NCBI GenBank assembly: GCA_030834695.1
Contig: JAUQXK010000117.1
Location: forward strand, 1 to 57,242
Direction: 5' to 3'
DNA length: 57,242 nt
Source of the DNA: Desulfobacterales bacterium
Lineage (GTDB): Bacteria; Desulfobacterota; Desulfobacteria; Desulfobacterales; SpSt-501
Made by a program: the position numbers and the translations under genes
Notes under the pieces: generated by a model
What the model was told of the DNA's origin: nothing
The model's database searches: none
Seen by the model: the letters and a program-made list of their open reading frames with translations, nothing else
Shown: positions 35,162 to 42,835 of the stretch, one piece after another
Layout of the letters: the number at the start of each line of letters is the position of its first letter
How positions within the stretch are numbered: the first letter of the stretch is position 1

Positions 35162-35842
35162 TCAACGCTCGGAGGATTCAACGACGATTTTCTGGGCCAG
35201 GCCGCGCCCGAGGGCGTAACGTTTCAGATCCACGGCGACAGCCAGCTGGCCCTGGCCGTCGTTGGTGATGATCTCGATGCGGTCGCCCTGCCGCAGGCCC
35301 ATCGCCAGAAGCCTCATCCGCACGCTGGCGCCGCCGCTGATCTCGCGGATCACCAGCCGCTCGCCGGCCTTGGCCATCGTCAGCGGCATCTGCCGCGAGC
35401 GCTCCTTCAGGCAGTCGGCGCAGATCCCGTAGATCTCCATTTTGTGCCGCAGCATGTGGAACCCGTGTGTGGCGGCAATCTGGATCTGGTATTTTTCGAG
35501 GCGGTCTTCCTTGAACTCGATGATCCGGCCGCACTTGGTGCAGATCATGTGGTCGTGGTGATCGCCGAGATGGTGATGCTCGTAACGCACGACCCCGTTG
35601 TCGAACCGGCTCTGGCGGGCGAAGCCCAGGCGGCTCAGCATCTTCAGCGTATCCCGGACGAAGTCCGGCGAGAGCTTCATGCCGCTGCGGTCCAAATGCC
35701 CGGCCAGCTCGTCCACGGTGACATGCTTTTCCATCGACAGGAAGGCTTCCAGGACCTTGAAGCGGTCCTCGAAATTCTCGACGCGCTCCTGCTGGAAAAG
35801 CTTGCGGAACTGCTCTTTCTCCTGAGTGTGCAGCGGAGTCAT
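35162..35842 (-). CDS. Fur-family regulator fused to a FeoA domain
   Basis: This encodes 226 residues. Residues 1-150 are a Fur-type repressor: a winged helix (about 20-90), an HHHLGDHHDH metal site and two zinc Cys pairs, CTKC at 101-104 and CADC at 141-144. Residues about 152-222 are a FeoA/SH3-like domain (ISGGASVRMRLLAMGLRQGD). FeoA normally helps the FeoB iron pump or serves as a metal-sensing tail in DtxR proteins. The fusion suggests an iron sensor whose DNA binding is tuned by the C-terminal domain. It lies 40 bases before the radical SAM gene and 13 after the FmdB gene. Confidence 0.9.
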   Translation of the reverse strand: MTPLHTQEKEQFRKLFQQERVENFEDRFKVLEAFLSMEKHVTVDELAGHLDRSGMKLSPDFVRDTLKMLSRLGFARQSRFDNGVVRYEHHHLGDHHDHMICTKCGRIIEFKEDRLEKYQIQIAATHGFHMLRHKMEIYGICADCLKERSRQMPLTMAKAGERLVIREISGGASVRMRLLAMGLRQGDRIEIITNDGQGQLAVAVDLKRYALGRGLAQKIVVESSER

Positions 35843-38603: not shown

Positions 38604-40826
38604 ATGCAATCCACTGACAGCATAGCGCTTGCGAAGGACGAGACCGAGTCCACCGCCGGGCTCGACCTCAATCACCTGATCAAGGCGCTCATCGAGATGA
38701 ACATCGCCCGCAAGAATGTGCTTTTTTATCCGGGGCGCCATCGCCAAGTCAAGAAGAGCATCGATCTCGCGCACGGCTGTCTCAGCCTCTCCCTTGAAGC
38801 GATCGATGAAATCACATTGGTAATCGCCAAGGAATCCTTCTCGGTCGGCGGCTGCCTTCTGGATCCGTCCAATTCGGTGCTGCAAGAGCTGCGGGCCGTT
38901 TTCAAGGCCAAAAACATCGCTTCGTTGACGTTCCGGCAGGGGCTCTCGAGGAACGAACTGGCCGGGTTCCTGCTTCGAATCACGCGCAGCGAAGAAAGCG
39001 CCGATTTCCAAGCAACGAACGACGAGTCGCCCCTGCAGGAAGCCTTCACCGAAAATGTCCGCATTCAAGCTGTGGACTACTCGAAATTCTCCCACCTCGA
39101 GGAAACGGTCATCCACCGGAAGGGCGCTCAGGGCGCCCAAAAACCGCGCGATTCGGTCTGGAACGATTTCGTGCACGGCTTGGCCAGCGGCATCCTGATA
39201 GATCCCAACGACGCCCAGCCGGCCGAGTTCGTCCGCCGGCCTTCTCCGTCAGGCATCGCCGGCCACCTGAACCGCCTCGAGGAGATTGAAACAGAGCTTC
39301 TCAAAAAATACGAAGATGTGATCAAAGACCACCTCCTGAATGCATCGGAGGGCAGCGATCCGCAGCGCGATTCGAGCTGGAGCGATCTGTGCCGCTGTTT
39401 CGAGCAACTCAAACCGGTGCTCCGCAATCAATTCCTGGCCGTGACCTTTGACCAGTGCGCCCTCCAGACGAATCCGGAGTCTCTGGAACCCCTTTTGGGC
39501 CGCCTGCCACTCAAGCTGCTGATCGATATGCTGAAGTCGGCAACCAGCGGAAAAAAGGAAATATCGCCGTCCCTCTTGAACTTTGTCGGCAAAATGCTGA
39601 ATGCGCGCGGCGCCAAGGCGCAATCGCCCGAGCATGAGGCGGCCCGATGTATGGCCCAAGAGATCGACGCCCTCGCCGCGCCTGAGATGGCCGGCACTCT
39701 TTTCAAAAAGGAAAATTTTGGCGCCTATGTAACACCGGAGTATGAAAAAAAACTGAAGCAATTGGTCCTCCCCCGGGCCCCGCAAGCAGCAAACGAGGAA
39801 GGCCTGATAGACACCCAAAGCCACCTGAAAACCTTGAGCGAGGACCATCTGGCCGCGCACATCGTCGAAGCGGGGATCGCCTTGATGTCCGGCCAACTCG
39901 ATGCGGAGTTGTATCGGGAGATCGCCGAGCAGCTGGTCAGGCTGGCGAGCGATCTCGCCAAAAAAGCCAATATCGGCCTGCTTTCAAAAATGCAGCAGTT
40001 GTTCCTGGACCACAGTCGGATGGAGCCGGCCGACGCCAAATGCGCGGCCGCCCGCGCGGCCCTCGACCAGCTGCGCGGCCCCCGGTTTATCCGCTCGTTG
40101 CGAGCGGCGATAGAAGCCTCTGGCCGCTGGACCGAGCCCGCGGCCACGGCCTTTCTCTTGGCACTGGGGTCCAACGCGGTCCCCGAGGCATTGCATCTGT
40201 ATTTGCAGCATAACGAGGAGCAGCGAGAGGAATGGCTGGCCGTCCTGATCGAACGATATCCGCAGCACCTGCTGAAAGAGGTCATCAAAAGGATTCAGCT
40301 TTACGCCGGTGCCCACACGGTGGAGCTGCTGATGGTTTTCGAAAAGCTGGGGGACCCGGCGTGCAGTCCCTGTGTCAGGCCCTTTTTGCAGCACCCGGAT
40401 GAAGCTGCGCGGTTTCAAGCGCTGAAGCTCCTGCTGAGTTTCAACGACGAGGAAGGCGTCAGGTGTTTACGGAAGCTGCTCGACTCGAGAAACAACCAGG
40501 ATTTCCTGGCGGCCTTGGACCTGGCTGAAATATATTCAGTGGCAAGGGTCGCCGCGGACTTGGCCAAGCGCCTGAAGACACGGTTTCTTCTTTATCGATC
40601 GGACGTGATCTGCAATGAAAGGATACTGCTGGCGCTGGAGAACTTCGGGTATCGGGTGGCAGTCAGCGATCTCGAGCGCCTGAACCGCATCCGCTTCTCC
40701 TTCTACCCGCAGCAATTGGCGCGCATGAAGTCAGTGGTTTCTGCAATGCTCTTGAAACGAACACCGGTGCCGAAATCGGATAGAGCCAGGGGGACGGCCG
40801 TACGCCATGACGCCAACGCTCAATGA
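38604..40826 (+). CDS. Large HEAT-like repeat protein paired with HD-GYP
   Basis: This encodes 740 residues with no signal peptide or membrane helix. Residues about 22-128 form a domain that aligns with the N-terminus of the HD-GYP protein encoded next: LFYPGRHRQV, then FSVGG, then ASLTFRQGLSRNELAGFL. The rest is mostly alpha-helical; the C-terminal third (about 560-700) looks like HEAT/armadillo repeats (CVRPFLQHPDEAARFQALKLL, VRCLRKLLDSRNNQDFLAALD). It is likely a cytoplasmic scaffold for a c-di-GMP phosphodiesterase. The stop lies 20 bases inside the HD-GYP gene. No named function. Confidence 0.75.
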   Translation: MQSTDSIALAKDETESTAGLDLNHLIKALIEMNIARKNVLFYPGRHRQVKKSIDLAHGCLSLSLEAIDEITLVIAKESFSVGGCLLDPSNSVLQELRAVFKAKNIASLTFRQGLSRNELAGFLLRITRSEESADFQATNDESPLQEAFTENVRIQAVDYSKFSHLEETVIHRKGAQGAQKPRDSVWNDFVHGLASGILIDPNDAQPAEFVRRPSPSGIAGHLNRLEEIETELLKKYEDVIKDHLLNASEGSDPQRDSSWSDLCRCFEQLKPVLRNQFLAVTFDQCALQTNPESLEPLLGRLPLKLLIDMLKSATSGKKEISPSLLNFVGKMLNARGAKAQSPEHEAARCMAQEIDALAAPEMAGTLFKKENFGAYVTPEYEKKLKQLVLPRAPQAANEEGLIDTQSHLKTLSEDHLAAHIVEAGIALMSGQLDAELYREIAEQLVRLASDLAKKANIGLLSKMQQLFLDHSRMEPADAKCAAARAALDQLRGPRFIRSLRAAIEASGRWTEPAATAFLLALGSNAVPEALHLYLQHNEEQREEWLAVLIERYPQHLLKEVIKRIQLYAGAHTVELLMVFEKLGDPACSPCVRPFLQHPDEAARFQALKLLLSFNDEEGVRCLRKLLDSRNNQDFLAALDLAEIYSVARVAADLAKRLKTRFLLYRSDVICNERILLALENFGYRVAVSDLERLNRIRFSFYPQQLARMKSVVSAMLLKRTPVPKSDRARGTAVRHDANAQ

Positions 40827-41961
40827 GCAAAATGAGATCGGTCAGCTGGTAGCCGGGCTGAGCGCGGCGATCTCCGGCATGCGCCTGTACGCGGAAAAAC
40901 ATCCGAAAACAGTCGCCCTGCTGGATCAGGCCTACGCCGGGATCGCCCAGCGTGCGACCAGCCGGGAGAAGACGACGGCCATGATCGTCGATGATGAGTT
41001 GCTGTGGGACGGCACCGCGCTGAAAGGCAAAGTCTCCCAGCTGACGTCGTTTGTCAAGGAATTGCGGGCCGTCGGGATTGAAAGCATCTGCTTCCACAAG
41101 GGAATCACCCGCTCCGAGATAACCGATTTTCTAAAAACCCTTGCTTCGAACCAAGCGGATTCCCTGCCCAGCAGCGCCCATGTGAAGCTCGGCAAACTCC
41201 GACTGAGCTGCAAAGAACCTGACCTCTGTCCGATCGGCGAAGCGGATCAGCAGCGCGTGGCCGCGTTTCTGGCTCTCCGCGACAAGAAATACCCGCAGGT
41301 CCGGGAAATATCCCACGGCATATCTCGCCATCGCAACTTCGAAATCAAGGGCGTAGAGGATGTCGTGACAACGTTCGTCCGGGGGTTCGCCGAAAACATC
41401 AACCCCATCCGCCTCCTTATCCAAATGAAAGTAGGCGACGAATACACCTACACCCACATGGTCAACGTCTGCATCTTGACCATGAGCCAAGCGGAATCAT
41501 TGGGATTTCCCGCGGAGTATCTCTTTCAGATCGGCGTGGCCGCCATTCTGCACGATGCGGGCAAGCTGTTTATTCCAGCGGAGATCCTGAACAAGCCCGG
41601 CAAACTGACCAATGAAGAACGATTGATCGTCGAAACGCACTCGCTGAGAGGCGCCAGCTACATCCTGAAGCATGATGCGCTTCCCAAGCTCGCCGTGCTC
41701 GGGGCATTGGAGCATCATATCAAATACGATGGCACCGGATACCCTGCCATCCCGACGTCTTATCAGCCCAACATCATCAGCCAGATGATCGCCATCTCCG
41801 ATGTGTTCGACGCCATGCGAACCCGGCGTTCGTACAAGGAACCGAAACCCGTTAAGGACATCGCTGCGGTGCTCCTGAAGGAAAAAGGCAGCGCGTATCA
41901 CCCGCAGCTGGTGGACAATTTCTTGAAACTCATTCAGGAGGAACCAAACGGCCTGCGCTGA
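40807..41961 (+). CDS. HD-GYP domain protein (putative c-di-GMP phosphodiesterase)
   Basis: This encodes 384 residues. The N-terminal domain (about 10-105) is shared with the upstream HEAT-like protein. The HD-GYP domain (about 195-375) has HD at 249-250 in ILHDAGKLFIP, a later His in ETHSLRG, and HHIKYDGTGYP at 303-313, so the metal ligands and GYP motif are intact. It should hydrolyse cyclic di-GMP. There is no receiver domain, so the N-terminal domain is the likely input. It overlaps the upstream gene by 20 bases. Confidence 0.92.
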   Translation: MTPTLNEQNEIGQLVAGLSAAISGMRLYAEKHPKTVALLDQAYAGIAQRATSREKTTAMIVDDELLWDGTALKGKVSQLTSFVKELRAVGIESICFHKGITRSEITDFLKTLASNQADSLPSSAHVKLGKLRLSCKEPDLCPIGEADQQRVAAFLALRDKKYPQVREISHGISRHRNFEIKGVEDVVTTFVRGFAENINPIRLLIQMKVGDEYTYTHMVNVCILTMSQAESLGFPAEYLFQIGVAAILHDAGKLFIPAEILNKPGKLTNEERLIVETHSLRGASYILKHDALPKLAVLGALEHHIKYDGTGYPAIPTSYQPNIISQMIAISDVFDAMRTRRSYKEPKPVKDIAAVLLKEKGSAYHPQLVDNFLKLIQEEPNGLR

Positions 41962-42418: not shown

Positions 42419-42835
42419 ATGCATACGAACTCCCCAATGAAATCTCAAAAGATCAAAATCGCAATCGTGGATAATAAGGCCATCTTCAGGGAGTCTCTAA
42501 GGAGGCTCGTTGAAAAAGAGCCTGACCTTGGTGTGGTAGCAGATGCAGAGCTTAACCTTGACGGGATCAAAAAAGTGGGAAAGCACAAACCGGACGTTAT
42601 TCTGATGAACAGAAACGAGCCTTTCACTGATGGCTTGCAGGACACCAAAATAGTGATTTCGAAGTTTCCTGATACCAAAGTGATCATTCTGTCAATGCCT
42701 TCCGAAAGAACCGTGGCGGCTACTTTATGCGAGGCGTGGGTATGCCATAACTTGTGCAAAAATTGTAGTACCGAGGAGATCTTTGCTGCAATTAGGAAGG
42801 AGCTTCCTCAAGGGTGGGGAAGGGAAAAACCATGA
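42419..42835 (+). CDS. Degenerate response-regulator receiver protein
   Basis: This encodes 138 residues, a single receiver-like fold (IKIAIVDNKAIFRESLRRLV) of the NarL type with no output domain. The acidic pair is reduced to Asp-Asn. The phospho-acceptor position reads VILMNRNEP, with Asn for Asp (Asn58 if the second ATG at 42437 is used). A Lys is kept in NLCKNCS. It probably cannot be phosphorylated and may work by binding a partner. Neither ATG has a ribosome site. Base composition is more AT-rich than its neighbours. The stop overlaps the next start (ATGA). Confidence 0.7.
   Translation: MHTNSPMKSQKIKIAIVDNKAIFRESLRRLVEKEPDLGVVADAELNLDGIKKVGKHKPDVILMNRNEPFTDGLQDTKIVISKFPDTKVIILSMPSERTVAATLCEAWVCHNLCKNCSTEEIFAAIRKELPQGWGREKP

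Follow-up and report, generated by a model that had tools for sequence, protein, structure and literature searches.

The window, that is, the whole stretch of 57,242 nucleotides analysed here (contig JAUQXK010000117.1 of the Desulfobacterales bacterium assembly GCA_030834695.1), holds two open reading frames (ORFs) on the + strand, at 38604-40826 (740 amino acids, aa) and 40807-41961 (384 aa). The first encodes a protein with HEAT-like repeats, hereafter the HEAT partner, and the second a predicted HD-GYP phosphodiesterase of cyclic di-GMP (c-di-GMP). The first-pass annotation had described them as coupled genes overlapping by 20 bases, and the ORF list returned both genes and exactly this overlap. 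Both proteins open with a common domain of ~110-130 residues, which we named ND (N-terminal domain). The features of the pair are the following, with E denoting E-values and pLDDT the per-residue confidence of the AlphaFold models.

38604-40826, + strand: gene of the HEAT partner, 740 aa (ORF; HEAT_2 above cut-off; AlphaFold model mostly helical, mean pLDDT 77.6)
38655-39104, + strand: ND of the HEAT partner, residues ~18-167 (profile match at E 2.2e-43 in a search of its own genome, its own sequence being among the profile builders; pairwise alignment with the other ND)
38727-38741, + strand: Y42-P-x-x-H46 motif in the ND of the HEAT partner (among partners, Y in 74/74 and H in 69/74, with N in the remaining 5)
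39156-40754, + strand: helical arm of HEAT/ARM type, residues ~185-717 (AlphaFold secondary structure; fold matches)
40807-40826, + strand: 20-base overlap of the partner gene and the HD-GYP gene (ORF coordinates; same overlap in locus L026)
40807-41961, + strand: predicted HD-GYP phosphodiesterase gene, 384 aa (ORF; HD_5 at E 8.1e-20; fold match to 4mcw)
40807-41211, + strand: ND of the HD-GYP protein, residues 1-135 (E 1.7e-38 with its own sequence in the profile; E 2.4e-13 with the leave-HD-out profile described below)
40888-40902, + strand: Y28-x-x-x-H32 motif in the ND of the HD-GYP protein (long-type enzymes including the window's: Y in 76/79, H in 75/79)
41206-41391, + strand: low-confidence linker, residues ~134-195 (pLDDT mostly <50)
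41374-41940, + strand: HD-GYP catalytic domain, residues 190-378 (domain scan; metal-ligand positions kept in 78 or 79 of 79)

The N-termini of the HEAT partner and the HD-GYP protein are homologous. A full local alignment joined residues 23-130 of the former with residues 9-116 of the latter with no gap, at a raw score of 75, where shuffled sequences scored 29.3 +/- 4.8 and none of 2000 scored as high. Comparison by hhalign of the HD-type and HEAT-type ND families, four sequences each, gave a probability of 98% and E 2.5e-13. A leave-HD-out profile, built from 15 NDs with every HD-type ND excluded, matched the window's HD-GYP protein at E 2.4e-13, recovered all 79 HD-GYP proteins supplied and matched none of 374 reversed decoys. 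Among the 295 ORFs of the window it matched the two genes only, the ND of the HEAT gene being itself a profile member. Pairwise BLASTP between the two N-termini gave no match, and we rejected this null as a test of homology, since the full local alignment and the profiles do find the match. The first-pass annotation had placed the shared segment at residues about 22-128 of the 740-residue protein, which the alignment bears out; the HD-GYP segment that it gave as residues about 10-105 aligns as well, its end having been set some 11 residues too early. Where a lack of homology had been set beforehand as the refuting outcome, the profile searches and hhalign found homology instead.

In the AlphaFold models both NDs show the same order of elements, helix-helix-strand-strand-helix-strand-helix-strand. 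In the HD protein these are helices 5-27 and 33-53, strands 55-61 and 64-67, helix 77-88, strand 93-97, helix 102-114 and strand 126-129; in the HEAT protein they lie at 22-41, 47-66, 69-74, 79-81, 91-102, 105-111, 116-127 and 152-156, with a short extra helix (130-133) before the last strand. Confidence is high across most of the ND in both proteins, and both models leave the relative placement of the domains open (predicted template modelling scores 0.53 and 0.45). The best-conserved feature of the ND is the Y-x-x-x-H motif at the turn joining helices 1 and 2; in the short-type HD proteins its Y and its H are each present in 28/28. Neither Pfam nor NCBIfam has a model that covers the ND. Searched with 19 ND members, Pfam gave two families, each matching 1/19 members, and NCBIfam one family, matching 2/19 at 20.3 bits, where the cut-off is 275. 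Pox_I1, DUF6101, the TTC3 helical domain, PilM and RAP-1, and from NCBIfam KdgR, were rejected as identities of the ND, the matches being below cut-off where shown or confined to one or two members. The ND profile matched six PDB sequences up to E 1, which we judged to be chance matches (the best, at 5.2e-6, is a cytochrome c555 trimer in which no stretch passes alone, and the next stands at 0.002). Fold searches with the whole-protein models returned lists filled by the HD-GYP or the HEAT parts.

The two genes stay together in other genomes. We first surveyed 58 genomes, that of the window and those of relatives, and fetched 14 stretches around the matches; the full pair was present in the window's genome and in three others (G005, G009 and G019). 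In the near relative at L026 both proteins are 94-95% identical to those of the window and the 20-base overlap is preserved, and the HD protein at L108, the closest of the named records (a Desulfobacterales metagenome-assembled genome, MAG, of isolate Prado118), is 95% identical to the window's. When the ND profile was run against 297 genomes of the phylum, the window's among them, at least 113 had matches, many as two adjoining genes. From the matches listed we fetched 40 stretches, of which the first 20 and three or four more were picked for two close matches; 20 further stretches (one already in the set) were picked mainly by the length of the HD-type frame and make a fairer sample, although in at least one of them, L206, a tandem was visible. 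A search of named records with a profile built from paired HD proteins found 318 loci, and the best 80 of these were kept as the named-record loci. By their record titles, taken as given, these come from several Desulfobacterota lineages, Geobacter, Trichlorobacter and Nitrospirota, with a few MAGs titled Syntrophomonadaceae or Chloroflexi. Among cultured hosts, Trichlorobacter thiogenes ATCC BAA-34 carries the pair at L182.

In the named-record loci a complete ND gene lies directly upstream of 73 of the 82 HD genes. We also applied a partner test, which asks for a same-strand frame, from 700 bases of overlap to a gap of 500, that matches a partner profile into the HEAT arm, and which recovers broken or cut genes; the partner profiles were built from the same named-record loci or from 14 short partners. 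A HEAT-partner frame was found directly upstream of 80/82 HD genes in the named-record loci and 48/49 in the other loci. The two sets have 11 genes in common, and with these counted once, 115 of the 117 distinct ND-HD-GYP genes have a partner directly upstream; the occurrence of the genes apart, named beforehand as the refuting outcome, is thus not what the genomes show. In the frame-length sample the count is 18/19 (the exception is L199; L194 and L206 are also in the named-record set). At L132, where no partner was found, only 55 bases of upstream DNA are available, and L169 fails the test since its HD gene is frame-broken, with a partner frame present upstream. Among the distinct complete pairs 57/107 overlap, 32 of them by exactly 4 bases, although these lengths may be overstated because the ORF starts are the longest possible. 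Two whole pairs stand in tandem at L163, and two at L175, one of them with a broken partner. No constant third gene accompanies the pair in the 80 named-record loci, where the largest neighbour family occurs in 16/80 at scattered positions. Because of the related front domain and the persistent adjacency in many sulfate reducers, metal reducers and related bacteria, partner and enzyme probably work as one unit, and that the pair is conserved as a functional unit is, in our view, almost certain.

We built a tree of 262 NDs, leaving out rows with E >1e-8 and identical rows; it rests on one short domain and a midpoint root, and its support is moderate. All 118 enzyme NDs form one clade with nothing else inside (support 0.886). 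The opposite half of the tree, 113 NDs, holds 108 from complete partners and five from L091, L092, L146, L169 and L175; these five belong to broken partner genes or fragments at loci that also have an ND-HD gene. A third group consists of 31 NDs from other proteins, all of which lie outside pairs. The enzyme and partner groups each split into a long type and a short type, the short side holding one long-type enzyme and eight long-type partners. Read most simply, the two NDs would have split long ago and been inherited together since. The catalytic domain and the HEAT arm give concordant distance matrices (r 0.82 over 72 pairs, 0/999 permutations as high), and this agreement indicates joint inheritance, not contact.

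The 384-aa protein carries HD_5 at 71.7 bits (cut-off 27.2) and HD at 39.7 bits (cut-off 22), and HD_5 is present in all 79 enzymes scanned. Its best match by both sequence and fold is PmGH of Persephonella marina (4mcw; E 1.5e-24; Z 22.7, root-mean-square deviation, rmsd, 2.5 over 185 residues). The likeness lies in the catalytic domain and is confined to the catalytic part of the window's protein (residues 191-384). According to the PmGH report (PMC4159591), the metal ligands there are H189, H221, D222, H250, H276, H277 and D305, with E185 as the eighth in the trinuclear subgroup. Counted from the alignment, 7/8 are kept, the seven corresponding to H217, H249, D250, H278, H303, H304 and D332 of the window's enzyme; likewise PmGH K225 is K253 and D183 is D211. 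Unlike PmGH, the window's protein has a tyrosine at the E185 position and HHI in place of HHE. In the alignment of 79 long-type enzymes, which left out L121, L164 and L172 of the 81 named-record ND-HD proteins, E212, H217, D250, K253, H278, H303, H304, GYP and D332 are found in 79/79 and H249 in 78/79. At L172 (5342-6972) the HD frame runs on from a piece of HEAT arm, with an earlier HEAT piece in another frame, pointing to a fusion or a frame error. Among the short-type enzymes 28/28 retain the His/Asp ligands and GYP, and the G of DG is mostly replaced by another residue. For PmGH it is reported that E185A retains c-di-GMP hydrolysis at a much lower level and that changes to the GYP residues cost little activity (PMC4159591). 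Since the ligands are kept and these PmGH variants retain activity, hydrolysis of c-di-GMP is likely here, perhaps with two metals, and judging by its residues we regard the enzyme as probably active on c-di-GMP. The window's genome has 10 GGDEF, 14 HD_5 and 15 PilZ matches, so the nucleotide is probably made and read there.

The upstream protein has HEAT_2 (PF13646) at 30.3 bits, above the cut-off of 27.7. At E 0.01 HEAT_2 was found in 59/59 long partners scanned (74 aligned) and in 14/14 short partners scanned (28 in the tree). Fold matches to HEAT/ARM solenoids cover mainly residues 400-740, the best having Z 12.8 and rmsd 9.3 over 309 residues, with a warning from the tool that the arrangement may be a common one. 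The partner thus resembles other bacterial HEAT-repeat proteins in its above-cut-off repeats and differs from them in its N-terminal ND and its fixed pairing with an HD-GYP gene.

Related NDs open both proteins, and the genes adjoin in the order partner, then enzyme, in the genomes seen. From this starting point we propose that the two genes make one c-di-GMP-degrading unit, an account that we favour with some reserve. The two NDs, which belong to separate clades, would pair with one another and thereby tether the HEAT protein to the phosphodiesterase; such contact through the ND appears reasonably probable. The first-pass annotation had suggested dimerisation through the shared domain, with the large protein as scaffold or regulator, and the results support this in part. 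The HD-GYP domain, on a probably flexible linker from its ND, would hydrolyse c-di-GMP, as its conserved residues suggest. The HEAT arm (~530 residues) may dock on a target, on a signalling partner or at a cell site and in this way place the enzyme or switch it on or off, giving local control of c-di-GMP; that the HEAT protein regulates or places the enzyme seems to us somewhat better than an even bet.

The nearest published logic that we found is RcbA/RcbB of Vibrio vulnificus. There the two proteins are co-encoded in a bicistronic arrangement, both carry an N-terminal tetratricopeptide repeat (TPR) domain and the shared domains interact; the TPR of RcbB represses its own GGDEF cyclase, and RcbA lifts the repression and anchors RcbB (PMC12282931). 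The likeness consists of two adjoining genes, a shared N-terminal domain and a c-di-GMP enzyme on one of the proteins. The shared domain there is a TPR, whereas the ND has a predicted alpha/beta fold; the enzyme there is a GGDEF diguanylate cyclase, whereas here it is an HD-GYP phosphodiesterase, of the opposite kind, and the partner bears a HEAT arm. The domain matches of the pair proteins included no TPR model and those of the HD-GYP protein no GGDEF, and since the shared TPR and the GGDEF enzyme are both lacking, the pair does not belong to the RcbAB family. We propose by analogy that the same arrangement may be built here with ND and a phosphodiesterase; in such a scheme the contact, the direction of control, the signal and the target are all inferred.

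Several observations weigh against the proposed unit. Duplication alone can yield a shared domain with no contact between its bearers, and agreement of the distance matrices is expected anyway for linked genes. Of the six other genomes of the window's genus, three of them 80-87% complete, only one has the pair, which may therefore be dispensable in this genus. One ND-HD gene, L199 2537-3871 (-), has ample upstream DNA and no HEAT partner, the sole such case, and as the search profile was built from paired HD proteins and the best 80 of 318 loci were kept, lone relatives lower down were possibly missed. In the enzyme, the eighth PmGH ligand E185 aligns with Tyr213, Glu212 being adjacent, and HHIKYDGTGYP agrees with the HHExxDGxGYP consensus at 7/8 fixed letters, I replacing E.

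Other explanations have to be set beside this. The ND might be a sensor or a target-binding domain that each protein uses separately, for the same signal or the same third partner and with no mutual contact, the HEAT protein being a parallel effector in the operon. The occurrence of NDs in proteins with no adjoining HD-GYP ND gene in the fetched stretch agrees with this, as does the YxxxH motif, kept in both partners as expected of a common ligand site. However, the way in which the two genes keep strictly to one order and stay adjacent, the different clades of the enzyme and partner NDs and the tandem NDs within single chains described below all fit ND-ND contact better, and we hold separate use to be rather doubtful. 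We think it unlikely that the HD-GYP protein cleaves another cyclic dinucleotide, such as cyclic GMP-AMP (cGAMP), or is a non-catalytic c-di-GMP receptor whose state the HEAT protein relays. HHI in place of HHE, the unmatched E185 position and the missing G of DG in most short-type relatives would suit such a role, the sequence matches include a cGAMP phosphodiesterase of Vibrio cholerae (5z7c, 2.5e-17), and cGAMP signalling is reported in Geobacter sulfurreducens. On the other side stand the remaining ligands, the Lys and GYP, kept in 78 or 79 of 79, the c-di-GMP enzyme PmGH as best match by sequence and fold, and the residual cleavage by E185A and the small loss in GYP mutants reported for PmGH (PMC4159591). 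That the genes form a plain operon in which the N-termini were duplicated and the two products are functionally unconnected is very improbable: overlapping genes are common and duplication yields shared domains, but 107 distinct complete pairs are conserved with no constant third gene in the 80 named-record loci, and whole pairs occur in tandem copies.

The proposal of a c-di-GMP-degrading unit joined by its NDs is also favoured by the other proteins that the ND heads, some of which carry c-di-GMP-linked domains. At L028, L030, L103 and L104 the ND, HEAT, cNMP_binding and PilZ occur in one protein (PilZ of L028 lies just under the cut-off); at L033 the same parts are divided between two adjoining genes. 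ND proteins at L027 and L029 have weak GGDEF-like ends, under the cut-off, and further ones have HEAT alone detected or, in several cases, no Pfam match. Proteins of ~1370-1460 residues at L093, L102 and L105 bear two tandem NDs, in the order GGDEF-AAA_16-ND-ND-HEAT in one L093 protein and that of L105 (~1450 residues); at L093 two tandem-ND genes stand in a row, the second reaching the end of the fetched stretch. Both tandem NDs of the GGDEF-AAA-ND-ND-HEAT proteins fall in the third tree group, so this chain of cyclase, NDs and HEAT resembles the pair by analogy, not by descent. The window's genome has a third ND protein, at L094 2968-5214 (-), of 748 aa with no Pfam match at E 0.001. Tentatively, the ND could be a hitherto undescribed domain for assembly, around which a c-di-GMP network is wired. 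Separate clades of NDs would then link HEAT arms to a phosphodiesterase in trans, as in the pair, in cis to a diguanylate cyclase (GGDEF-AAA-ND-ND-HEAT), or to receptors of c-di-GMP and cyclic nucleotides (ND-HEAT-cNMP-PilZ), and the pairing of NDs would set the match of enzyme and HEAT target.

Bacteria often own many enzymes that make or break c-di-GMP, and how each serves its own target is an open question. A conserved phosphodiesterase with a dedicated repeat protein, perhaps joined to it by the ND, offers a testable case of local c-di-GMP breakdown under the control of a partner, whose hosts would be sulfate reducers, Geobacter relatives and Nitrospirota, and naming the ND would let other proteins of the network be recognised. 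The open-licence papers searched gave no description of the HD-GYP/HEAT pair, those that came up being concerned, by their titles and the openings of their abstracts, with other subjects (Xanthomonas genomes and jumbo phages), and an account elsewhere is possible.

Searches of other kinds gave the following results. The anti-phage defence families of PADLOC matched neither protein at E 0.01, and a defence role was rejected on this ground; one scan of viral contigs gave no relative of the HD protein. Rfam at the gathering score found no RNA element in the window and six of the 80 named-record loci. Downstream of the pair, 42419-42835 (+) encodes a small stand-alone receiver domain (PF00072, 4.2e-13). 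Its block PDVILMNR has N at the usual position of the phosphate-accepting D, and because of this replacement it may be a pseudo-receiver. At 35162-35842 (-), FUR and FeoA domains are combined in a single protein.

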